A DNA stretch of 37,642 nt, taken from contig JAITPM010000106.1 of assembly GCA_031289425.1 (NCBI GenBank), forward strand, positions 1-37,642. The letters are read 5' to 3'. Shown piece by piece: positions 225 through 11,123 of the stretch (positions are counted from its first letter, which is position 1; each line of letters starts with the position of its first letter). A program made the position numbers and the translations under genes. This stretch comes from Fusobacteriaceae bacterium (GTDB taxonomy: Bacteria > Fusobacteriota > Fusobacteriia > Fusobacteriales > Fusobacteriaceae). Below the pieces are notes generated by a model, which saw nothing but the letters and a program-made list of their open reading frames with translations, was not told the DNA's origin and ran no database searches.

Positions 225-1325
225 ATGAGCGAATTTACAAATGAAGAGAAAAAATTATTTGAAGAAGAATTCAATAAATATCGATTTCTTAGGCCTACCG
301 TATTAGTTTGCGGAGGTACTGGTGTAGGAAAAAGTTCTCTAATTAATACAATGATAGGTGTTAATGCACCAATAAAAGATGGCACACCATGCACTCAAAA
401 ATTTGAAATGTATGAGAATGACCTTATCAGGATATTTGATTCACGTGGAATGGAAAAAGGAGAAACAGTAACAGATTTTGTAGATAAATTGAATGAATTT
501 ATTTCTGGTCATAGTTCAAAAAATGATTGGGATGTGAATATTCATATTGTTTGGTATGCTATAGGTGCAACAGATGCTAGAGTCACCGATGGAGATATAG
601 AAATCATTAATAGATTAAAAGAAATAGTCGTTAACAAAAACATAATCTTTGTACTTACTAAATGTGATTCTGCGAGACAGAATCAAATTGAAGCATTATC
701 AGAAATATTAAAAAACAAATGCGATACAACTGATAGCAGTATCCATGCCGTTTGTGACCAAGAGGGAATCGATAGTAATAGAACTCCTGAAGAAATAAAA
801 AAAGGAGTTAACGATCTATTAAATCATTCGATACAATTACTTTTTGATACATATGTAGAGGCTATGATTATGGCACAAAAAATTGATATTGAAAAGAAAA
901 TAGAAATGATTAAACAATTAAAAATAAAAGCTAAAAAAATCATTACTGAGACTGTAGCATTAACGGCAGCAACATCATTTGTTCCAATTCCTGTAGTTAA
1001 CGTTAATGCAACATTAACTACATCTATACAAATTGGGATGATTGCACGTTTAGCTGGAGTATATAGTGTCGGAATACAAAAAGAACAGATTTTACCTTTT
1101 ATAGCTGCGGCATTAGAAAAACAATCAACTGCTACTCTTATCAAACTTATTCCAATTATTGGCCCTATAATAAATAGTAATGCTATTAGTGAAATAACTA
1201 AAGGTATTGGTATGTATTGTGTATCTGTTTTTGAAAATGCTGCCATCGCAAAAATAAATGGTAAAAATATGGATATAAAGTTTGATATTACTTCATTAAT
1301 AAATTTTATAAATAACGATAAATAA
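225..1325 (+). CDS. GTPase with C-terminal DUF697-like hydrophobic domain, subfamily A copy 1
   Basis: A 366-residue P-loop GTPase of the TRAFAC/Era-like type. Visible motifs are G1 GGTGVGKS (residues 30-37), a possible G2 Thr in GTPCT (53-57), G3 DSRG (72-75) and G4 TKCD (145-148). A conserved HIVWYAI block lies at 107-113. Residues about 240-345 are Ala/Ile-rich with Gly and Pro breaks (VPIPVV, LIPIIGP), the pattern of the DUF697 domain thought to contact membranes. There is no signal peptide. The start has AAGGAGG 5 bases upstream. It is the first of five tandem paralogues and is closest to the gene at 1533. GTP binding is well supported; the biological role is unknown. Confidence 0.85.
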   Translation: MSEFTNEEKKLFEEEFNKYRFLRPTVLVCGGTGVGKSSLINTMIGVNAPIKDGTPCTQKFEMYENDLIRIFDSRGMEKGETVTDFVDKLNEFISGHSSKNDWDVNIHIVWYAIGATDARVTDGDIEIINRLKEIVVNKNIIFVLTKCDSARQNQIEALSEILKNKCDTTDSSIHAVCDQEGIDSNRTPEEIKKGVNDLLNHSIQLLFDTYVEAMIMAQKIDIEKKIEMIKQLKIKAKKIITETVALTAATSFVPIPVVNVNATLTTSIQIGMIARLAGVYSVGIQKEQILPFIAAALEKQSTATLIKLIPIIGPIINSNAISEITKGIGMYCVSVFENAAIAKINGKNMDIKFDITSLINFINNDK

Positions 1326-1440
1326 ATATATGAATTATAGTTACTTAATAAATATAGATATTATATACCTTAATATTTGAAGTTAATTTATTTTTTATCA
1401 ATTAATATTTTATAATAAAAATGTGATTTTATAAAAAGGT

Positions 1441-1521
1441 ATGATGATAAATTTAACCATACCACGAATAATGGCAACAAGAGCTCTCGTAATTTTGCAA
1501 AAAGCTATTAAAAATATATAG
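1441..1521 (+). CDS. Candidate 26-codon peptide before GTPase copy 2
   Basis: A short frame starting ATGATG at 1441 runs to a TAG at 1519-1521, which touches the Shine-Dalgarno sequence of the next GTPase. The peptide is basic and amphipathic, ending ATRALVILQKAIKNI. The only upstream ribosome-binding signal is a weak AAAAAGG. It could be a translated leader coupled to the GTPase, or chance; no homologue is recognised. Confidence 0.2.
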   Translation: MMINLTIPRIMATRALVILQKAIKNI

Positions 1522-1532
1522 GAGGCAATAAA

Positions 1533-2639
1533 ATGACAGACTTTACAAATGAAGAAAGAAAAAAATTTGATGAGGAGTATGAAAAACACAGAAAAGTATT
1601 TCGTCCAACAGTGCTTGTATGCGGAGGTACAGGTGTAGGTAAAAGCTCACTTATAAAAACTATGCTTAATGTAAATGTACCTATAAACGATGGTTCACCG
1701 TGTACTAAGAATTTTGATGTGTATGAAACCGATTTTATTCGTGTGTATGATTCAAAAGGGATGGAACGTGGTGAAACAACGGAAGAATTTGTTGTAAGTA
1801 TTAATGAATTTATAGCTGAACGTCGTACAAATGTAGATATAGAAAATAGGATACATCTTGTGTGGTATGCAATAGACGCAAGTGGTGCTCGTTGGCAAGA
1901 AGGAGATAAAGCAATTATTGATGAACTGGGCAAAATAGTAGGAAAAGGTAACATAGTTTTTGTATTTACAAAGTGTGATATTGCTAGAGAGCCTCAAATT
2001 GAAGCAATTAAAGAAAAATTAAAGACTGAATCTGGGATAGATGATAGAAGGATTATCCTAGTTTGTGATGACGAAGGGATGGAAAAAAGCAATGTTTCAC
2101 AAGAAATAAAAAATGGAGTTAAACATCTATTAGAACATTCTCTATTAATTCTTCCTGAAGCTTTGCATTTTGCAATGCTTATGGCACAAAAAATTGATAT
2201 TGATAAGAAAATAGAAACTATTAAAAGCCTAAAAGGGGAAGCTATTGCAATTGTATCATCAGCAACAGTTGCGGCTAGTGCAGCTGCACTAATTCCTATT
2301 CCATTTGTTGCCAATACGACAGTTATTACTCCAATACAAATCGGAATGGTCAGTGGATTAGCTGCAATTTATAGTATTGGTATATCGAAAGAATCAATTT
2401 TCCCATTTATTGCATCAGTTGTTGGTCGGCAAGCGGCAGCTTCATTAGTTACACTTATCCCAGGCTTTGGTTCTTTTATTAATGCTGGAATAGCCACAAT
2501 AATTACTGGGGGAATAGGGAGATATTGTATGACCATCTTTGAAAAAAGAGCAATTGCTAAGGCAAAAGGGGAGACTTTGCCTGAACTAAAATTAGATCTC
2601 TCTGTTGTAGGAGAATTTATAAAAAATTATGAAAAATAA
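1533..2639 (+). CDS. GTPase with C-terminal DUF697-like domain, subfamily A copy 2
   Basis: This 368-residue paralogue of the gene at 225 has the same layout: a short charged N-terminus, G1 GGTGVGKS near residue 31, G3 DSKG near 73, an HLVWYAI block near 107 and G4 TKCD near 146. A hydrophobic Ala/Ile-rich C-terminal domain follows (about 240-345, with IPIPFV and LIPGFG). All nucleotide-binding motifs are intact, so it should bind GTP. AGGAGG lies 7 bases before the ATG. A 16-bp-stem hairpin follows at 2702-2746. By eye the two genes agree at roughly half of positions, so the duplication is not recent. Function unknown. Confidence 0.85.
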   Translation: MTDFTNEERKKFDEEYEKHRKVFRPTVLVCGGTGVGKSSLIKTMLNVNVPINDGSPCTKNFDVYETDFIRVYDSKGMERGETTEEFVVSINEFIAERRTNVDIENRIHLVWYAIDASGARWQEGDKAIIDELGKIVGKGNIVFVFTKCDIAREPQIEAIKEKLKTESGIDDRRIILVCDDEGMEKSNVSQEIKNGVKHLLEHSLLILPEALHFAMLMAQKIDIDKKIETIKSLKGEAIAIVSSATVAASAAALIPIPFVANTTVITPIQIGMVSGLAAIYSIGISKESIFPFIASVVGRQAAASLVTLIPGFGSFINAGIATIITGGIGRYCMTIFEKRAIAKAKGETLPELKLDLSVVGEFIKNYEK

Positions 2640-2701
2640 TAATTCGGATAATATATGATATGAGAAATTGTTTGGTAATTGAATTAATATTATGAAAAAA
2701 A

Positions 2702-2746
2702 TTCCCTGAAATCAAAATAATCTTTTATTATTTTGATTTCAGAGAA
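2702..2746. repeat. Long perfect stem-loop between GTPase copies 2 and 3
   Basis: Arms 2706-2721 and 2727-2742 pair over 16 bp with no mismatch around a 5-base loop (CTTTT). A further 3 bp (2702-2704 with 2744-2746) pair beyond a single mismatch. No U-run follows on the plus strand, so it is not a standard intrinsic terminator. It could be a transcription stop for copy 2, an mRNA-stabilising hairpin or a protein-binding site. Confidence 0.8.
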
Positions 2747-2840
2747 ATGTTAAAAGAAAAATATTTTATGAATAATCATCTGGTTTGATATTTAAAAATA
2801 CCAATACCAATTTTATAAAAAATAAATAAAGGAGCTTATA

Positions 2841-3932
2841 ATGTCAAATTCAATAATAAGTATGGATGCAGTATCATCTTCAAAGCGTCCTACCATTTTG
2901 CTCTGTGGTGAAACAGGAGTTGGAAAAAGTTCACTTGTCAAAACAATGTTAAAGATTGATGTTCCAATAAGTGATTGGAATTCATGTACAAAGGAATTTA
3001 AATTATATGAAAGTAATAAAATTTGTATTTTTGATTCTATGAGGATTAGAAAAAGGGCAGAAAGTTGAAACTTTTTTAAAAATGATTAATGAATTTATTG
3101 ATGAACACAGAAGTGAGTATGATATAGAAAATAATATACATCTTATTTGGTATGCTATCGGAGCAGGCACTGCCAGAATAACTCAAGGTGATAGGGAAAT
3201 CATCAAAGGGTTATGCAACTTTATTGGAACCCAAAAAAAATGTTATATTTGTGCTTACTAAATGTGATGTTGCAAGAGATGACCAAATAAATGCATTAGT
3301 AAATACACTAAGAAATGATTGCGAAAGTAAAGATGAAAATATTTATAAAGTTTGCGATTCAGAAGGAATGTAAAGCAGTAGAACACCAGATAAAATAAAA
3401 GAGGGAGTTAAACAAGTTAGTAGAATATTCTATAAAAATATTACCAGAAGTTTTACAAATATCTTTATTAATGGTTCAAAAGTTAGGACTTGAAAAAGAA
3501 TCAGAAAAAATAAAAAAATTAATAGAAAAAATTAAAGATAAAAAAACAAATGCAAAAAAAATAGTAACTGCGGCTACTGTAAGTGCATCAGCTGCTGCGA
3601 TTGTCACTATTCCACTTGCCGGAATTGCGGTTATCACTCCTATACAAATTGCGATGGTAGTAAAACTTGCTTCAATGTATGATCTAGGAATTACTAAAGA
3701 GGCAATCGCTCCATTTATTGCAGCTGCTCTTGGAAGACAAGCAGCAACTTCATTGTTACACATTATACCATTTTGGGGGCAAGCAATAAATGCAACAGTT
3801 GCTGGGACTATTACTGGTGGGAACGGTATGTATTGTATGTCCGTTTTTGAAGAAGTTGCTATTGCAAAGCTATCAGGAGAAGAGATAAAAATTAATCTAA
3901 AAATTAGTGAAATCAAAAAATATTTTAGATAA
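2841..3932 (+). pseudogene. Broken DUF697-type GTPase, subfamily A copy 3
   Basis: The DNA aligns with copies 1 and 2 from end to end but the frame is destroyed. The start (2841) reads through G1 GETGVGKS. One extra base at about 3040 then shifts the frame exactly in G3; removing it restores DSRG followed by LEKGQ. A second shift falls in the run of eight A at 3233-3240. TAA at 3371 replaces what is probably a Glu codon after GM. A third shift at about 3416 precedes the C-terminal hydrophobic part, which is open from 3471 to 3932. G4 TKCD is still readable at about 3260. Four independent lesions, only one in a homopolymer, argue for real decay and not sequencing error. AAAGGAG is still present upstream of the start. 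Confidence 0.9.
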
Positions 3933-4023
3933 TAATGTTTTAATGGAAGTTGCATAGTTAAGTTAAATAGGTATTTTATAATATATCATCAAAAAATGTA
4001 TCTTAGAAGAATTTATTTGGAAA

Positions 4024-4083
4024 ATCATTGGGAGTACTATTTTTAGAGATTACAAGAAAAAAAGGAAAAGCAGGGGATTTAAG
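4024..4083 (+). pseudogene. Signal-peptide remnant fused in front of GTPase copy 4
   Basis: The 20 codons before the ATG at 4084 read IIGSTIF then a basic stretch, in frame with the GTPase but with no usable start upstream. IIGSTIF is the end of the signal peptide of the intact LprI-like protein at 8663 and also occurs in the remnant at 7114. It is best read as the scar of an lprI-like copy deleted during duplication. Confidence 0.65.
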
Positions 4084-5136
4084 ATGAAAGCAAATATATT
4101 AGTATGTGGAAAAATTGGAGCAGGAAAGACATCTCTTATTAAAGCTGTTACTCAATTAGATACTGTCCCAGATTCTGCCATTATCGTCAATAGATTGAAA
4201 ACTGATGGATTTGATATTTATGAAACCGACATAGCAAATTTTATTGATGCCGATGGAATGGAATCAGGGCAAACAATTAATGATTATATTGAGTTTATAA
4301 AAGAAAAAATGATAAATCGTTTAAATAATGCATCAGTGGAAAATTTGATTCATAATGTTTGGTTCTGTATTGATAGTAGTGATGAGCAAATTCAAAGTTC
4401 TGATGTCAACTTTCTTAAGGTATTAGATGATAAAGTTTTAGTTGTATTAACAAAATATGAAAAAATGCAAAAAAATCAATTTGATAACTTAGTAAAAGAT
4501 TTAGAAGAATTGATTTCACAAGAACGAATAATCGTTGTATCTAATGTAAAGAAAACAGGGTTAGAAAAATTACTAGATAAAGCACTGCATCTAATTGAGC
4601 AATGTATGAATGGGTCAAAGGAAGAAATTCAATCTTTTACTAATTGTTGGGATAATTATTATAGTAAAATGATAAATAGATGGAAAGAAAAAACAAATGC
4701 TGAGGCTGATGAGTGTATTAAATGGGGAGCATGTCGTGCAGCGACAATTGCAATTGTTCCATTACCTTTAGCAGATTTAGGCCCTCTTATCGTCAATGAA
4801 GCATATATGATTCATAAACTTGCAGGTATTTATGGATATGCTGCTGATAAATCAATTATTGCAATGTTAGGCGGCGTTGCAGGCGGAAGTTTTGCTGGGA
4901 AATTGCTTGCAAGCTTTTTACCGGGATTAAAGAGTGCTATCGCTGCAGGAGTGACCTATGGAGTGGGGAAAGCGGCAAAAGCATACTTTGAATCAGATAT
5001 GAGCTTGGATATAAATATGTTAAAAGAAAAATTTAAATTAGGAGAAAAAGAATCAAAAACTACTGATTGGGAAAAAATAAGGTTGCTGATAAAGAATTAT
5101 AGTAAGGCAGCAGTTGAATTGATCAATTTTGAATGA
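4084..5136 (+). CDS. GTPase with C-terminal DUF697-like domain, subfamily B copy 1
   Basis: A 350-residue protein that begins almost directly with the G domain: G1 GKIGAGKT at 9-16, G3 DADG at 55-58, and a VWFCID block at 92-97 equivalent to the VWYAI of subfamily A. The G4 position reads TKYE (123-126), with Glu in place of the Asp that normally reads guanine. The C-terminal domain (about 205-300) carries PLPLADLGP, LAGIYGYAADKS, GGVAGGSFAGK and FLPGL, a clear DUF697-type pattern. A possible ribosome-binding site (AGGGGA) lies just upstream. It is nearly a duplicate of the gene at 7200. Role unknown. Confidence 0.85.
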   Translation: MKANILVCGKIGAGKTSLIKAVTQLDTVPDSAIIVNRLKTDGFDIYETDIANFIDADGMESGQTINDYIEFIKEKMINRLNNASVENLIHNVWFCIDSSDEQIQSSDVNFLKVLDDKVLVVLTKYEKMQKNQFDNLVKDLEELISQERIIVVSNVKKTGLEKLLDKALHLIEQCMNGSKEEIQSFTNCWDNYYSKMINRWKEKTNAEADECIKWGACRAATIAIVPLPLADLGPLIVNEAYMIHKLAGIYGYAADKSIIAMLGGVAGGSFAGKLLASFLPGLKSAIAAGVTYGVGKAAKAYFESDMSLDINMLKEKFKLGEKESKTTDWEKIRLLIKNYSKAAVELINFE

Positions 5137-5201
5137 ATTATTCAATTAAAGCTAAATTATGTAGATCTAAATATTTATAAACTTGTATGGAGATGATCTA
5201 A

Positions 5202-5684
5202 ATGAAAAAAATATTTATGTTGGGAATTTTATTGTTTATATTAGGGAATATATCACTATTTGCAAGATCACCTGAAAAACCTTATGAAAATTGGGAAGCG
5301 GAAATAACATGGAAAATGGAAGAAACTATGATTAAAATTGATGAAGATATTAAGTTTATAAATGAAAATTATTTCGAAATAGCAAAGGCTATTAAGAATA
5401 ACAAACCAATTCCAGGTGGATATGATAAATGGCTATTTATAAATGATCCTAAACAAGACCCAGAAAATGCAAAACATATTGCCGCATTTACTAAGAAAAA
5501 TAATTCATATATAGATCCTTTTGTTAAGATAGCAGAGGAATGGATGGACGGTTTTGGGGTTCCAAAAAAGGACAGAGAAAGAGCTAATAATTATCTACAT
5601 GAAGAATTGGTTGGAAATATAGGCGATGGATTATATGAACTATCAGACGCATACGATAAAGTTACAACTGCATTAAACGAATAA
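5202..5684 (+). CDS. Small exported protein of unknown function
   Basis: 160 residues with a clear Sec signal peptide (MKK, then a Leu/Ile/Phe-rich core, ending ISLFA before RSPEKP). There is no lipobox, so the mature protein of about 140 residues is probably periplasmic or secreted. It is acidic, helical and rich in Lys, Glu and Asn, with Trp residues in WEAEITWKM and WMDGFG. The ribosome-binding site is weak (GGAGATG). It follows GTPase copy 4 by 65 bases and may share its transcript. I do not recognise the family. It does not resemble the LprI-like protein at 8663 beyond having a signal peptide. Confidence 0.7.
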   Translation: MKKIFMLGILLFILGNISLFARSPEKPYENWEAEITWKMEETMIKIDEDIKFINENYFEIAKAIKNNKPIPGGYDKWLFINDPKQDPENAKHIAAFTKKNNSYIDPFVKIAEEWMDGFGVPKKDRERANNYLHEELVGNIGDGLYELSDAYDKVTTALNE

Positions 5685-6009
5685 ATGAATAGGCGATAAT
5701 AAATTAGGCAATTTTCTAAGATTATATAAAATATAATTATAAATAATTTTATAAAAATAGTATTAAAGACGGAATATGTTTTTTGTTGTATACAAGGGGG
5801 TATATAATTGTGACCATAGATAAATGTAAATATTTATCGTAAATATTTATTTGATTGAAATAAAAATTATATTTTTTTGTTAATATCGTTGGAAAAATTT
5901 ACAAACAAATTAAAAAATTCAATAGGAATAAGGTGTTTAGCATTTCATAAATGTCTAATTTTTACCCAAGAAAGGGAGGATATAATATATAGTTATCATA
6001 TAAACTAAA
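5685..6009. other. A+T-rich intergenic stretch with a 12-bp direct repeat
   Basis: No coding frame is supported. At 5826-5837 and 5839-5850 the 12-mer GTAAATATTTAT occurs twice, spaced 13 bp centre to centre, each copy holding the palindrome AAATATTT; this could be an operator pair or an A+T-rich coincidence. A TATAAT at 5803-5808 lacks a good -35. A strong ribosome-binding sequence (AAAGGGAGGA) about 40 bases before the ATG at 6010 has no matching start codon, consistent with decay of the following gene. Confidence 0.4.
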
Positions 6010-6732
6010 ATGAATTTAAAAATTATAAATAATGATAAGAATTATAAATATGATAGTATTGGATTTGGGAGGAGTACAAAAGAATTTTTAACAGGCTTAA
6101 GCAAAAACATTTTTGAACAATCATATCAATTTTATAATGATGGAAGCGAGGTAGTCAGGTATGACTTGCCAATACTTATAAGTGAAAATAAATTATACTC
6201 AACTTTTGCAGTGGCATTAGATAAACTTATACATGTTCATCAATCTGAGGTGCATTTGAAAAGCAGTATCATAAAATATAAAAAAGAACCTAGATCTGTT
6301 GATTTTTAGTGTGAGTATAAAAAAATTGGATATTTTATAGAATTAAAACACTTTTTATATTCTATAGATATCAAAGATTATACATTGCCAGTCCATTTTG
6401 AAGATAAATTAGCCGTATTGTTTCAATAAATAAAAGGTTTGCAAAGAATAAAAAAAATTGAAATTTTATGGAATGATGGTAGGGTTGTTGTCGGAATTTT
6501 GATTGTTTTGGGAGTATATATTAAAAATAAAGGTGTAATTGAAGACTCAGAACAAAAACTATATGAAAATATTTTAAACAGAAAAGAAATAACAGAACTT
6601 TCATTACAGGTATTTTCTTCCACTTGGTATTTACCAGATGAAACAAGAAATGCAATGAAAGAAATGGTTAGTTGGAAAATAGCATATGATTGGATATCAA
6701 TTTTCTATTTTGTATATTCTGAAAAGAGATAA
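6010..6732 (+). pseudogene. Decayed hypothetical gene with two in-frame stops
   Basis: One reading frame spans the region but is cut by TAG at 6307-6309 and TAA at 6427-6429. The three segments (99, 39 and about 100 codons) are in the same frame and all look protein-like, so together they fit a single ancestral protein of about 240 residues. Each stop is one transition from a sense codon (TGG or CAG, and CAA). Around the first stop the sequence reads SVDF, stop, CEYKKIGYFIELKH. The spacing of Asp and ELK loosely recalls a PD-(D/E)xK nuclease core, but this is only a resemblance. A downstream restart at TTG 6439 is possible. The family is not recognised. Confidence 0.6.
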
Positions 6733-7005
6733 TAAAAAAGGAATTTCTTATTCCAAAAATTTGCTTACAAGAAAACTTATCATGCTGAATATATTGACAT
6801 AATAAAAAAATGTGTAAGAGCTATAAATTTGATGTGGTAAATATTAACTTTCGATATATAATTTCAAAATACTAGATATATAAACAAGTATGTGATAAAA
6901 TTTTTTCATGATACTAAATATGAGCTAATATTACTGATTCTTGGTAAATAGTGTTTGCAACAAATAAACCAAAAATTAACATTCATTTAATTCCTTTAAA
7001 TTTAT

Positions 7006-7034
7006 TTGTAAAAATATTAATATTGATTTATAAT
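7006..7034 (+). promoter_or_regulatory. Candidate sigma-70 promoter for GTPase copy 5
   Basis: TTGTAA (7006-7011) and TATAAT (7029-7034) are separated by exactly 17 bp. A 9-bp hairpin follows at 7058-7080, inside the predicted leader. It is oriented to transcribe the signal-peptide remnant and the GTPase at 7200. The -35 matches consensus at 4 of 6 positions in an A+T-rich background. Confidence 0.5.
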
Positions 7035-7057
7035 AATGAGATAAAAGAATTAATTAT

Positions 7058-7080
7058 ATTATGGTTTTTATAACCATAAT
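7058..7080. repeat. 9-bp perfect inverted repeat in the leader of GTPase copy 5
   Basis: ATTATGGTT (7058-7066) pairs with AACCATAAT (7072-7080) around a 5-base loop. Its place 24 bases downstream of a candidate -10 suggests an operator or a leader hairpin. There is no U-run, so a terminator is less likely. Confidence 0.6.
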
Positions 7081-7113
7081 TAAATACATATAACTGTATA
7101 TGAGGAGAATATT

Positions 7114-7203
7114 ATGATTAAAAAATTAATTTTTTAAATCGCACTCATCATTGGGAGCACTATTTTTGCAGATTATAATGAGAACCAAGGAGGTTTAAAA
7201 TGA
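7114..7203 (+). pseudogene. Truncated LprI-like gene start, coupled to GTPase copy 5
   Basis: The frame MIKKLIF is stopped by TAA at 7135-7137 and then continues as IALIIGSTIFADYNENQGGLK to a TGA at 7201-7203. That TGA overlaps the GTPase ATG by ATGA. The DNA from the ribosome-binding site through IIGSTIFA is closely similar to that at 8650-8720, the start of the intact LprI-like gene. The body of the gene is missing, and the GTPase ribosome-binding site AAGGAGG sits inside the remnant. This marks the breakpoint of a duplication or deletion. Confidence 0.7.
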
Positions 7204-8219
7204 AAGCAAATATACTAGTATGTGGAAAAACCGATGTAGGAAAGACTACTCTTATCAAAGCCGTGACTCAATTGGGAACTGTCCCAGATTCTGCCGTTGA
7301 CCACAGTAAACCAAAAACAAAGGAATTTGATATTTACGAAACCGACATAGCAAATTTCATTGATGCCGAAGGAATGGAACCGGGACAAACAATCAATGAT
7401 TACGCTGAATCCATAAAAGAGAAAATAATAAATAATCTAAAGACAGCATCAGAGGAAAATTTGATTCACAATATTTGGTACTGTATTGATGGTAGTAGCA
7501 ATGGAATTAAAAGTGCTGATGCCAATTTTCTTAGGACGTTCAATGATAAGACCTTAGTTGTATTAACAAAATCTGAAAAAATGCGAAAAAGTCAGTTTGA
7601 TAATTTGGTAGAAGACTTAGAAGAATTGGTTCCAAAAGAACAAATAATCATTGTATCCAGTGCACATAAGACCGGTTTGAAAAAATTGCTTGATAAGGCA
7701 TTATATCTATGCGAGCAATCTATGAATGGGACAAAGGAAGAAATTCAATTTTTTGCTAGTCGTTGGGATAATTATTATAGTAACATGGTAAATAGATGGA
7801 AAGACAAAGCAAATGCCGAAGCTGATGAGTGTATTAAGTGGGGAGCAGGTCGTGCAGCGGCAATTGCGTTTATACCGCTACCTTTGGCAGATATAGGGCC
7901 TCTTATAGCCAATGAAGCATATATGATCCATAGACTTGCAGGTATTTATGGATATGCTGCTGATAAATCAATTATTGCGATGTTAGGTGGCGTTGCAGGA
8001 GGAAGTTTCGCTGGGAAATTCTTGGCAAGTTTTTTACCTGGATTAAAGATAGCTATCGCTGCAGGAGTGACTTATGGAGTGGGAAAAGCGGCAAAAGCAT
8101 ACTTTGAATCAGATATGAGCTTAGGTATAGATGCGTTGAAAGAAAAATTCAAACTAGGGGAAAAAGAATCAAAAACTACTGATTGGGAGAAAAATAAGGT
8201 TGATGATGATGAATTATAA
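7200..8219 (+). CDS. GTPase with C-terminal DUF697-like domain, subfamily B copy 2
   Basis: 339 residues, close to the protein at 4084 (roughly four residues in five by eye). G1 is GKTDVGKT at 9-16, G3 is DAEG, the block corresponding to WFCID is IWYCID, and the G4 position reads TKSE, again with Glu for Asp. A G5-like SSAHKTG is visible. The DUF697-type region carries PLPLADIGP, LAGIYGYAADKS, GGVAGGSFAGK and FLPGL. The C-terminus differs from copy 1 because of one extra base in the A-rich stretch near 8188-8194; after it the DNA still resembles the sister gene, but the frame ends 11 residues early as NKVDDDEL. AAGGAGG lies upstream of the start. Probably functional as a GTP-binding protein; role unknown. 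Confidence 0.85.
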   Translation: MKANILVCGKTDVGKTTLIKAVTQLGTVPDSAVDHSKPKTKEFDIYETDIANFIDAEGMEPGQTINDYAESIKEKIINNLKTASEENLIHNIWYCIDGSSNGIKSADANFLRTFNDKTLVVLTKSEKMRKSQFDNLVEDLEELVPKEQIIIVSSAHKTGLKKLLDKALYLCEQSMNGTKEEIQFFASRWDNYYSNMVNRWKDKANAEADECIKWGAGRAAAIAFIPLPLADIGPLIANEAYMIHRLAGIYGYAADKSIIAMLGGVAGGSFAGKFLASFLPGLKIAIAAGVTYGVGKAAKAYFESDMSLGIDALKEKFKLGEKESKTTDWEKNKVDDDEL

Positions 8220-8269: not shown

Positions 8270-8497
8270 ATGTTTAAGAAATTAATTCAACATGGAAATG
8301 ATTTAGCATTGATCATTGATAAACCTATCATAGAAATGTTGAATATAGATAGTTAGACAATATTTGAAATAACTACTGATGGTAAAAACTTGATACTTTC
8401 TCCACAAATTGGAAATAATCAGGAAAAAAATATTACGGAATCATTGGAAAAAATTAATAAAAAGTATAAAAATGTTTTAAAAAAGCTGGATGAATAA
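8270..8497 (+). pseudogene. AbrB/MazE-like antitoxin with an internal amber stop
   Basis: ATG at 8270 with ribosome-binding site GAGGAG opens MFKKLIQHGNDLALIIDKP, followed by IIEMLNIDS. That is the swapped-hairpin DNA-binding pattern of AbrB/MazE/SpoVT-type antitoxins (KL.khGNS.alvIdk..le.l.id). A TAG at 8354-8356 interrupts it, most simply from CAG. The frame then continues TIFEITTDGKNLILSPQ to TAA at 8495-8497, which completes a domain of normal length (about 75 codons). A truncated Doc toxin follows directly, so this is one half of a dead toxin-antitoxin pair. Readthrough of the amber codon cannot be excluded. Confidence 0.75.
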
Positions 8498-8499
8498 AA

Positions 8500-8640
8500 A
8501 TTATTAGGTTTTTAAAATTATCTGAAATTTTAATTATTTTAAAAGATCAAATAAGTAATTATGGTGGGAAATATGGTGTAAGAGACTTAAACTTATTAAG
8601 CTCCGCAATATATGTACCACAATCAGGCACATGTAACTAA
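8500..8640 (+). pseudogene. Truncated Doc/Fic-family toxin
   Basis: Starting just after the antitoxin stop, the frame reads IIRFLKLSEILIILKDQIS, then NYGGKYGVRDLNLLSSAIYVPQ, and ends at TAA 8638-8640. This matches the N-terminal part of Doc-type proteins (GG..GiRD..lLesAl..Pq). No ATG is present and the rest of the protein, including the Fic HxFx(D/E)GNKR active site, is missing, so it cannot be active. Type II antitoxin-toxin order is preserved. The break lies just before the ribosome-binding site of the LprI-like gene. Confidence 0.7.
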
Positions 8641-8662: not shown

Positions 8663-9076
8663 ATGAAAAAATTGATGTTTTTAATCATGTTCATCATTGG
8701 AAGTACTATTTTTGCAAGCTATACTGAAAACTTGACAGAAAGAATGTCTTTAGTAGAAGAGAAAATACAAAAAGTATACGATAAACCAAATGTCACTGAT
8801 GCTGAGATGACAAAAGCTTGTGAGTTAGGTAGAAAAGCTTGGGATAATGAATTAAATACCGTCTATCAATTGCTTATGAAAAAACTTTCAAAAGAATATC
8901 AAGAATTATTAAGAAAAGAAGAAAGACAATGGATAAAGGATAGAGATAAAGCAGCCAAAGAAGCCGGAGATGAATTCAAAGGCGGAACATTGGAACCGCT
9001 TATAATTACATCAACTCTTTTGGAAGAAACTAAAGCGAGAACCATACAATTGGCAGAAATGTATGATTCTTTTTGA
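8663..9076 (+). CDS. Exported LprI/DUF1311-like protein
   Basis: 137 residues with a signal peptide (MKKLMFLIMFIIGSTIFAS, no lipobox). The mature part fits the LprI/DUF1311 pattern: a Trp followed by LNTVYQLLMKKLS, then LRKEERQWIKDRDKAAKEA, GGTLEPL, and a final TKARTIQL. Family members occur in the periplasm or as lipoproteins, and some inhibit lysozyme. Only one Cys remains (KACELG), so the usual disulphide is absent. GAGGAG precedes the ATG. Partial copies of its 5' end lie in front of GTPase copies 4 and 5, linking it to the GTPase array. Lysozyme inhibition is not shown by the sequence. Confidence 0.75.
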   Translation: MKKLMFLIMFIIGSTIFASYTENLTERMSLVEEKIQKVYDKPNVTDAEMTKACELGRKAWDNELNTVYQLLMKKLSKEYQELLRKEERQWIKDRDKAAKEAGDEFKGGTLEPLIITSTLLEETKARTIQLAEMYDSF

Positions 9077-9226: not shown

Positions 9227-10516
9227 ATGCAAAGGTTATTGATGGAAAAACTTATAGAATGGAAAAATAACGCTGATAAAAAACCACTGATTGTCAGAGG
9301 TGTCCGTCAGTGTGGCAAGACTTATCTCTTGCAGGAATTCGGCAAAACATACTATGATGACGTTGTATATTTCAATTTCGAAGATACACCTCAAATATGT
9401 GAAACATTTGAGCGAGATTTGCATCCTCAACGGATTCTTAAAGAACTCAGTATTTTGCGAAACAAAACTATTGAACCCCACAAAACACTTATTATATTTG
9501 ATGAAATCCAACTTTGTGGTAAAGCATTGACTGCACTGAAATATTTTTATGAGAACACGCCGGAATATCATATTGTTTGCGCCGGCTCTCTTTTAGGTAT
9601 AGCATTAACCAAAAAAACTTCAGTTCCTGTTGGTAAGGTGGAATTTTTGACTCTTCACCCCTTGAATTTTTATGAGTTTTTGCTTGCAAATGGTAAAAAA
9701 TTATTAGTAGAAAATCTGAAAGAAGATAGTAAATTGACAGGGATATTTTCAGGAGAATTGAGAGAAAAATTATTGGATTTTTATATTGTTGGCGGTATGC
9801 CGGAAGCAGTCAAAACATGGATAGAAAGTAGGTATAACATTGAAAAAATAGAAGAAGTATTGTCTCGTATTCTGGACAGCTATCTTGTGGATTTTGCTAA
9901 ATACGCCCCCACGAAAGATTTCCCAAAACTTTTGGCTATATGGCGTTCAATCCCAAACCAACTTGCAAAGGAAAACAGTAAATTCATTTTCAGTCAAGTG
10001 AAGGATAGTTGGCGAGCAAAGGATTTGGAAGATGCAGTAGAATGGTTGATCGAAGCAGGACTTGTGTATAAGGTCGAAAAAATTGAAAAGCCGTTTATCC
10101 CTATATCTGCTTATGCAGATCACACTTTTTTTAAGTTGTATATGTGCGATGTAGGGTTATTGCGAAAGATGGCGGGCTTACCACCGAGTGTGATTTATGA
10201 TAAGAATAAGGCTTATACAGAATTTAAAGGTTCGTTATCAGAAAACTATGTGTTGTGTGAGTTAATGAATCTTTATCGGGAGACTCCCTTTTATTGGAAA
10301 TCAGGCAATAAAGCAGAGGTTGATTTTGTAATACAGGATGATGCTGATATTATACCGATTGAGGTCAAGGCTGAGCGAGCGACTCATGCCCATTCTATTA
10401 CGGAATATTGCAAAAAGTACCAACCACGAAAGTCCTTTGTTACTTCGATGGAAACAAAAGAGGGAACTATTCCGCTTTATATGATGTGGAGATTCAAGGA
10501 ATATTTAAAAGAATAA
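9227..10516 (+). CDS. AAA-type ATPase with DUF4143 domain
   Basis: 429 residues. The N-terminal AAA_14 ATPase has Walker A GVRQCGKT (25-32) and Walker B IIFDEIQ (89-95). The C-terminal DUF4143 region has a nuclease-like EVDFV (Asp366) and IEVKA (Glu379, Lys381), a PD-(D/E)xK-type arrangement, after KSGNK. Length is normal and all motifs are intact. The gene is visibly richer in G+C than its neighbours, which suggests acquisition by transfer. It is monocistronic behind its own strong promoter and a large inverted repeat. Proteins of this family are widespread in mobile and accessory regions; their cellular role is not established. Confidence 0.9.
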   Translation: MQRLLMEKLIEWKNNADKKPLIVRGVRQCGKTYLLQEFGKTYYDDVVYFNFEDTPQICETFERDLHPQRILKELSILRNKTIEPHKTLIIFDEIQLCGKALTALKYFYENTPEYHIVCAGSLLGIALTKKTSVPVGKVEFLTLHPLNFYEFLLANGKKLLVENLKEDSKLTGIFSGELREKLLDFYIVGGMPEAVKTWIESRYNIEKIEEVLSRILDSYLVDFAKYAPTKDFPKLLAIWRSIPNQLAKENSKFIFSQVKDSWRAKDLEDAVEWLIEAGLVYKVEKIEKPFIPISAYADHTFFKLYMCDVGLLRKMAGLPPSVIYDKNKAYTEFKGSLSENYVLCELMNLYRETPFYWKSGNKAEVDFVIQDDADIIPIEVKAERATHAHSITEYCKKYQPRKSFVTSMETKEGTIPLYMMWRFKEYLKE

Positions 10517-10553: not shown

Positions 10554-11022
10554 CTATAATTCCTTATACCTAACTTTCAATTCCTTCCCATGAAATGCGA
10601 TTGCAATCCCTAATATATTCTTTACACCTTTTTTGGATAAAAAAGTCCCATATTTTTTATCATCTATCTGTTTTATAGCATCATCCAATTTTTTTTCAAG
10701 ATTTCCCTCTGAATCAACTACTTTAAATTCAAATAGATACCCCATTCTTTCTATATTTTTTGGTTCTAATATCATTTTCTAATTTATATTCTTTTAACGC
10801 ATTATCAACTTCTTGTTCAGATAATCCAAAATAATTTTCGTAGTCTCTATTCAAAATTGTATCTACAGCAAGGTTATTGAGCCCAGAAAAAATACCTTCT
10901 TTTGAAATTTGCATTATCCCTGTCATTACAGCAAATTGCAAGTATTCATTATCTTTCAAAGCAGAACTATAAAAATTCTTAAAAAAATCTATGGCTTCAT
11001 CATAGTACTTATTTGCTTTAGT
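10554..11022 (-). pseudogene. Internally deleted remnant of an AAA-ATPase/DUF1703 protein
   Basis: On the minus strand the frame runs from about 11022 as KANKYYDEAIDFFKNFYSS, then LQFAVMTGIMQISKEGIFSGLNN and FGLSEQEVDNALKEY. This is the mid-part of AAA-ATPase-like (PF09820) proteins. Near 10775 it jumps, in another frame, to MILEPKN, YLFEFKVVD and GKELKVRYKEL, which is the extreme C-terminal DUF1703 nuclease-like end. The N-terminal ATPase and a large central block are missing. The remnant converges on the DUF4143 gene; both families are common accessory genes. Confidence 0.75.
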
Positions 11023-11123
11023 TTATTATATACTACATATCAGGTTCTTTCAATATTTATTTTTAAAATTCTTTATTATACAGACAAAGGTAATAAAATT
11101 TTGGTATATGTCCATATTTTCAT

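Follow-up and report, generated by a model that had tools for sequence, protein, structure and literature searches.

Why should a bacterial genome carry five related GTPase genes side by side on one strand, and what might their products do together? The question is raised by a stretch of 37,642 nucleotides (hereafter the window), which is one whole contig, JAITPM010000106.1, of the 2.45-Mb draft genome of a gut Fusobacteriaceae bacterium (GCA_031289425.1; 123 contigs, 98% complete). Between positions 225 and 8219 lie four intact GTPase genes and one broken copy, all on the plus strand, which belong to two subfamilies, A and B, and are arranged in the order A1-A2-psi-A3-B1-B2 (Table 1). An earlier note, made by inspection of the letters, had described just such a five-gene array, and its description stands: the open reading frames are found at these places and the similarities among their products are far above chance. 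A2 shares 51% identity with A1 (E = 1e-114) and B1 shares 77% with B2 (E = 2e-171), while identity between A and B is in general about 30% (31% for A2 and B1, E = 3e-27). The frame of psi-A3 is still open from position 3399, a part which corresponds to the C-terminal DUF697-like region. A search of the whole genome found no further A or B copies, every match lying on the window's contig. The contig end is only 225 bases to the left of A1, so that the left-hand neighbours of the array fall outside the contig.

The relatives of these genes in gut bacteria of another phylum suggest an answer. A genome search with the B family retrieved two Lentisphaeria genomes and one rumen-type genome, plus a congener of the window's organism. 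In each of the three non-congeneric genomes B is immediately preceded by an A gene, and one of them has the two as a single open frame. The equivalent search of the genome collection with the A pair alone, for which only two short peptide patterns could be derived, gave no match. Further loci were gathered by extended searches and each was scored with both A and B profiles. In 20 Verrucomicrobiota loci (mostly Lentisphaeria, the phylum label resting on titled Lentisphaeria records around which the genomes were drawn) A is followed immediately by B on the same strand, as separate genes in 9 and as a fused chain in 11, and the reverse order is never seen. Many of the loci come from draft or metagenome-assembled genomes, and 4 of the 20 pairs lie on contigs shorter than 5 kb. 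The remaining loci consist of three with A alone, one with B alone and four cut by contig ends.

A tree of 55 proteins separates the A clade (support 93/85) from the B clade (100/100). Within it A1 and A2 group together (99/99), the fusobacterial B proteins form one clade (100/97) and relatives from plasmids, as well as Leptotrichia-like ones, fall outside both A and B. The distance matrices of A and B are correlated (r = 0.56, with none of 2000 permutations as high), a value confounded by species descent. Natural fusion is the best available sign, short of experiment, that two proteins act together. Gene order, fusion and phylogeny mark A and B out as a two-GTPase unit that has been conserved, and we consider it very probable that they work together as a pair. 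The suggestion in the earlier note that these GTPases might act as hetero-oligomers thus receives strong support from the constant order, the fusions and the separate clades. For the same reasons the array in the window, A-A-psiA-B-B, is best described on sequence grounds as an expanded and partly decayed version of an old A-then-B pair.

The expansion itself has left several marks. By the tree, both A1 with A2 and B1 with B2 are lineage-specific duplications. The decayed start of a gene for an LprI-type secreted protein lies just upstream of B2 and is 80% identical to the start of the intact LprI-family gene at 8663; a shorter trace of the same start precedes B1. Together these look like the footprint of segmental duplication, a trace of the copying of the B segment. 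LprI was also considered as a conserved partner of A and B and was rejected, the LprI-like look of proteins at two other loci (L089 and L129) being unconfirmed by Pfam. The surviving copies are under purifying selection, with ratios of non-synonymous to synonymous substitution rates (dN/dS) of 0.29 for B1/B2 and 0.31 for A1/A2, and no codon stretch in either comparison exceeds 1. Base composition gives no signal of foreign origin, the G+C content of the array being 29.5% against 30.6% for the contig from position 11,205 onward. Array expansion is not unique to the window, as a tandem A'-A-B arrangement, in which the first A-like GTPase carries extra transmembrane segments, is seen in a genome from outside the Fusobacteriota (G484, Table 1).

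The domain architecture is largely as the earlier note had it, with some corrections. P-loop, G3 and G4 motifs are present in all four intact GTPases, for whose G domain the nearest Pfam models are septin and MMR_HSR1. The note gave the shared block as HxVW(Y/F)(A/C)I; the block is there, its correct form being H-x-[VI]-W-[YF]-[AC]-I. The TKCD assigned to subfamily A is read in both A1 and A2. As a mark of subfamily B, TKxE holds for B1, B2 and most Verrucomicrobiota B proteins, but TKxD takes its place in the B proteins of the two congeners and in those of five Verrucomicrobiota. A reading of the window's TKxE as decay was rejected on the ground that the motif is common to most B proteins of Verrucomicrobiota; it is unusual among GTPases and could change the base specificity.

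The C-terminal domain was taken in the earlier note to be of DUF697 type. Against the Pfam gathering cut-off of 27.7 bits for PF05128, B1 (35.8) and B2 (31.6) qualify, whereas A1 (21.6, E = 2e-4) and A2 (18.4, E = 2e-3) remain below, although the same helical region aligns with that of B. The domains are DUF697-like, as the note's proposal needed them to be, with scores above the cut-off in B1 and B2 only. Two to four hydrophobic stretches of 19 residues are found in this region in each of A1, A2, B1 and B2, which is compatible with membrane association, and the helical domain of A and B probably contacts the membrane. In the structural model of A2 (predicted local distance difference test, pLDDT, 81) the G domain lies between an N-terminal helix and a C-terminal helical domain. 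Its top match among solved structures is Toc33/34; interferon-induced IRG GTPases, GIMAP7, septins and LeoA, a bacterial dynamin, are also among the best. Confidence is lower for the B2 model (pLDDT 73), whose matches are YsxC, septins and an IRG.

How far, then, do A and B belong to something already named? The closest named concept is that of the DO-GTPase conflict systems, TRAFAC GTPases often present as two paralogues and thought to be dimers, whose loci are mobile, patchy and often near membrane proteins; a GAP1 partner belongs to them, and zinc ribbons are common (Kaur et al. 2020, PMC7159879). That two paralogous GTPases are encoded together, as gene order indicates for A and B, is a clear likeness, but no zinc ribbons were seen here, the C-terminal domain is DUF697-like and the pair can be fused. 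No DO-GTPase model, a family type contained in Pfam, was among the matches of the four window GTPases up to E = 1, and no GAP1 model was found among the part of the neighbours scanned in the window, the congeners and the Lentisphaeria loci. As to the conserved Walker B glutamate of DO-GTPases, compared at the level of the motif, G3 reads DSEG or DAEG in many B proteins and DSKG or DSRG in A. We would not count A-B as a member of the DO-GTPase systems or of any other named system.

Other likenesses are also partial. Toc33/Toc34-Toc159 and GIMAP/AIG1 proteins supply the best fold matches of A2 and are membrane-linked, dimerize through G domains and have an arginine at a comparable motif position, but the AIG1/GIMAP cut-off of 27 bits (PF04548) is unreached (24.3 for A1, with no listed match for A2, B1 or B2), and the C-terminus of A and B is DUF697-like rather than a tail anchor. 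YcjF/HI0043-type proteins (TIGR01620) share the C-terminal hydrophobic helical domain, with a weak match over about 50 residues; that match is far below the model's own cut-off, however, and here the domain follows a septin-side G domain in a two-subunit unit. Plasmid proteins labelled 'GTPase/DUF697' from Klebsiella, Cronobacter and E. coli are 27–29% identical over most of their length and have W-x-C-I and arginine motifs in common with A and B, but they are single genes without an A-B partner and lie outside both clades; their carriers are phage-plasmid-like records of about 50–140 kb and mobilisable plasmids of 5 kb. No name or specific family for the A-B unit was found in Pfam, NCBIfam, PADLOC or PHROGs, and phage records gave no match for A2. 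The statement in the earlier note that no named system has this layout holds for these databases and the open-licence literature, a scope in which names from subscription journals or preprints could be missed.

The distribution of one residue hints at how the pair might work. Just past the W-Y-x-I block, each A protein for which the motif was read carries an arginine (as GAR, DAR, SAR or similar); the residue is kept in those Verrucomicrobiota B proteins for which the motif was read and follows the W-x-C-I motif of the plasmid-borne relatives. The four fusobacterial B proteins have each lost the residue (DEQ, SNG, ADG and SGV). In Toc34, Arg133 is an intermolecular arginine finger that reaches into the active site of the partner (PMC12973003), and by its position in the motif the arginine of A, residue 120 in A2, may be equivalent. 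Granted that equivalence, an A:B dimer in the window's organism would have A's finger alone, so that A would activate B. We hold this asymmetric mechanism only tentatively.

The complete scheme can be put as follows. A and B are TRAFAC GTPases of the septin/Toc/GIMAP side, each with a DUF697-like helical domain. On the inner side of the membrane, contacts between their G domains most likely join them into an A:B hetero-dimer or a larger oligomer. Loaded with GTP they would assemble on the membrane, and hydrolysis may be asymmetric, the arginine of A reaching into a fusobacterial B, which has lost its own. Assembly or disassembly would be the switch, and a changed membrane state would be the response to a threat, most likely an invading element, alternatively envelope stress. 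Taken as a whole, a lineage-specific expansion of an A-B pair that acts as a membrane hetero-oligomer switch against invaders or envelope stress is the reading we modestly favour, A-B being most likely a stress or anti-virus switch that is apparently unnamed so far.

On which of the two threats is meant, the neighbourhoods give some hints. A regulator family with WYL and WCX domains is encoded near 13 A/B loci, divergently in 10 and on the same strand in 3, and in 11 of the 13 within 2.3 kb of the GTPase domain (4.3 and 5.7 kb in the other two); among the 13 are two of the loci with A alone, the one with B alone and one truncated at a contig end. Regulators of the WYL kind are known to lie together with phage-defence loci (PMC9122601). 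Other neighbours, picked by eye rather than by a count against a null, occur at single or few loci and comprise a type II restriction enzyme with its methyltransferase, MoxR/VWA-type genes, a NERD helicase (in G484 about 1.1 kb downstream of B) and a UvrD helicase scoring with GajB-type helicases. A distant single-gene relative is found near thymidylate synthase and ribonucleotide reductase genes on Klebsiella plasmids of about 110 kb, which we take to be SSU5-type phage-plasmids. Finally, the distribution of A and B is patchy. Occurrence is 7–8 of 98 Fusobacteriota genomes and 16 of 137 in the Lentisphaeria order. Across the 98, true B relatives are restricted to the three genomes of the window's genus and close A relatives to the window. 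Comparison of copy number and neighbours across relatives, as the earlier note had advised, thus shows an array that is not fixed across Fusobacteriota, a finding on which its proposal depended, and an A-B pair that recurs in Verrucomicrobiota. The WYL neighbours, the patchiness, the restriction and helicase genes and the plasmid relatives all lean towards conflict with invaders.

Several observations weigh on the other side. WYL regulators also control DNA-damage genes and responses (PMC9122601), and neither the window's genome nor those of its congeners yielded the family, weak evidence as these are drafts. Searches with PADLOC 2023 gave only weak, P-loop-level matches to LeoA, LeoBC and mad8 (E about 5e-3 to 2e-7) and no strong match to an anti-phage component over most of the length. 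The dN/dS of about 0.3, nowhere above 1, indicates constraint rather than rapid adaptive change, so that of the conflict-type selection suggested in the earlier note the patchy distribution, the WYL neighbours and the plasmid-borne relatives speak in favour but the substitution rates do not. The lone A and lone B genes in Verrucomicrobiota, and the presence of B without A in the congeners, count against the reading, as does, for the mechanism, the fact that the arginine equivalence was judged from motif position rather than residue-level superposition. In the window itself neighbouring GTPase genes are 150–210 nucleotides apart and B2 is 2.1 kb off, so they may not be co-transcribed; a hairpin between A2 and psi-A3, terminator-like on the minus strand only, likewise suggests that the copies here are not one tight operon. 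On balance we regard a role of the pair in conflict as an even call.

The congeners provide the main case for a different function, in which the GTPases are accessory switches of a TelA/YceG pathway of the tellurite-resistance type, active in envelope or oxyanion stress, and the array is a dosage expansion acting in trans with the TelA and YceG of a Ter operon. In both congeners (G001 and G002) yceG and telA are immediately preceded, on the same strand, by a single B gene, from which it would follow that B can work alone and that its role may be in stress, not defence. In the window's genome, contig 28 carries a Ter-type operon (yceG, telA and two terD-like genes) with no GTPase beside it. The single clade of fusobacterial B proteins implies for B1/B2 and the TelA-linked B a common ancestor separate from the other B proteins. 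Yet the window's own A and B genes are not with yceG-telA, which are on another contig; A has no TelA link anywhere seen; in Verrucomicrobiota B sits with A, with no TelA or YceG among the neighbour families examined; and the link could be peculiar to the two congeners. We think this explanation rather unlikely, though worth keeping in mind.

Two further explanations appear to us quite improbable. The genes might be ordinary accessory paralogues, a septin/Era-like family duplicated and now decaying in a region of low constraint, with no dedicated joint function here. One of the five copies is indeed broken, other gene remnants occur at 5.7–8.7 kb and 10.5–11.0 kb, and neither congener has an array near its counterpart of the rfaE-like gene that neighbours the array in the window, but the four intact copies are under purifying selection with all G motifs kept, and the A-then-B order matches a unit conserved and even fused in another phylum. 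Alternatively, A and B could be alternating subunits of septin-like or Toc-like filaments that shape or scaffold membranes, unrelated to conflict. Septins polymerise as hetero-oligomers and are the nearest solved proteins by sequence profile (E down to 1.6e-10), and Toc33/34 is the top fold match of A2. The septin profile (PF00735, 26.8–35.1 bits against a cut-off of 26.2) covers only part of the G domain, however: in A2 it spans model positions 104–195 of 280, its best stretch ending by about 195, and the Pfam scan of the window GTPases found no whole septin G domain including the septin-specific C-terminal part. The patchy occurrence in both phyla also fits poorly with a housekeeping cytoskeleton.

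The pair is of interest beyond this genome. In eukaryotes much work has been done on paired immune GTPases of GIMAP, IRG and Toc type, and their bacterial counterparts are mostly annotation labels. The A-B pair offers a bacterial GTPase pair with a clear signal of joint action, natural fusions included, and its residue pattern predicts which subunit activates, making a hetero-dimeric mechanism testable with small proteins. DUF697 is scarcely mentioned with GTPases in the open literature searched, where a single paper does so, and many genomes would profit from some hold on its function. At its boldest, the reading becomes an undescribed immune system, in which two divergent septin/Toc/IRG-like GTPases form an obligate asymmetric hetero-dimer, one subunit supplying the catalytic arginine of the other, and assemble on the membrane of the infected cell, under control of a WYL-type infection sensor in Verrucomicrobiota. 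Such a system, which we consider unlikely, would parallel in bacteria the GIMAP/IRG immune GTPases of eukaryotes, whether through common descent or through convergence.

Table 1. Coordinates of the GTPase array, of associated features in the window and of related features at other loci
Feature	Location	Strand	Details
A1, subfamily A GTPase	window 225-1325	+	366 residues; P-loop GGTGVGKS, G3 DSRG, block HIVWYAI, conserved Arg (DAR), G4 TKCD, C-terminal hydrophobic helical DUF697-like domain
A2, subfamily A GTPase	window 1533-2639	+	368 residues; P-loop GGTGVGKS, G3 DSKG, block HLVWYAI, conserved Arg (GAR), G4 TKCD
Hairpin between A2 and psi-A3	window 2702-2746		45 nucleotides, 20-pair stem
psi-A3, broken subfamily A copy	window about 2841-3932	+	three frame changes and an in-frame TAA stop
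LprI-start trace upstream of B1	window 4024-4055		shorter trace
B1, subfamily B GTPase	window 4084-5136	+	350 residues; G4 TKYE; Arg of GAR motif lost (DEQ); DUF697 above cut-off
Decayed start of LprI-type gene	window 7102-7185	+	just upstream of B2
B2, subfamily B GTPase	window 7200-8219	+	339 residues; G4 TKSE; Arg of GAR motif lost (SNG); DUF697 above cut-off
Intact LprI-family gene	window 8663-9076		
Ter-type operon, window's genome, contig 28	L059 4058-13987		phosphoribosyltransferase-like genes, yceG, telA, two terD-like genes, ATP-grasp and HAD genes
Second expanded array (G484)	L169 5268-9342		in order, A-like GTPase (extra transmembrane segments), A and B
Acidic single-transmembrane protein	L088 3179-3574		
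Acidic single-transmembrane protein	L129 8135-8512		
Acidic single-transmembrane protein	L091 5908-6441		
Acidic single-transmembrane protein	L131 5887-6591		

A few minor observations may be added. Adjoining A-B in four Lentisphaeria-type loci is a gene for a small protein, very acidic and with a single transmembrane segment at its C-terminus (Table 1), a candidate membrane anchor or partner of the pair. At one of these loci (L091, 9105-10454) a third B-type gene stands behind the fused A-B gene and has lost its P-loop; its product is likely a pseudo-GTPase subunit. Among the remnants in the window, positions 8270-8640 read as an AbrB-like antitoxin and a fragment of a Doc/Fic-like toxin, with broken frames, and an intact AAA_14/DUF4143 gene (9227-10516) lies beside the broken minus-strand remnant of a gene for an AAA/PD-(D/E)XK-type protein (10560-11040).

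Other GTPase clusters were met among the Fusobacteriota. Tandem septin-side GTPases adjoin a DUF3944/YaaW-like gene in the congener G002 (L052, 7287-12317, with four GTPase genes close together) and in G063 (L147, 8711-11608), a second paired-GTPase arrangement distinct from A-B. Elsewhere an N-terminally extended GTPase is followed by a small conserved protein, in the Leptotrichia-like genome G053 (L057, 7848-13496) and at two further loci (L055, 8263-13415; L146, 7635-10913), in surroundings that include a metallophosphatase-like gene, a glycine/alanine-rich membrane protein and a DUF697-only protein and that look like another patchy GTPase island.

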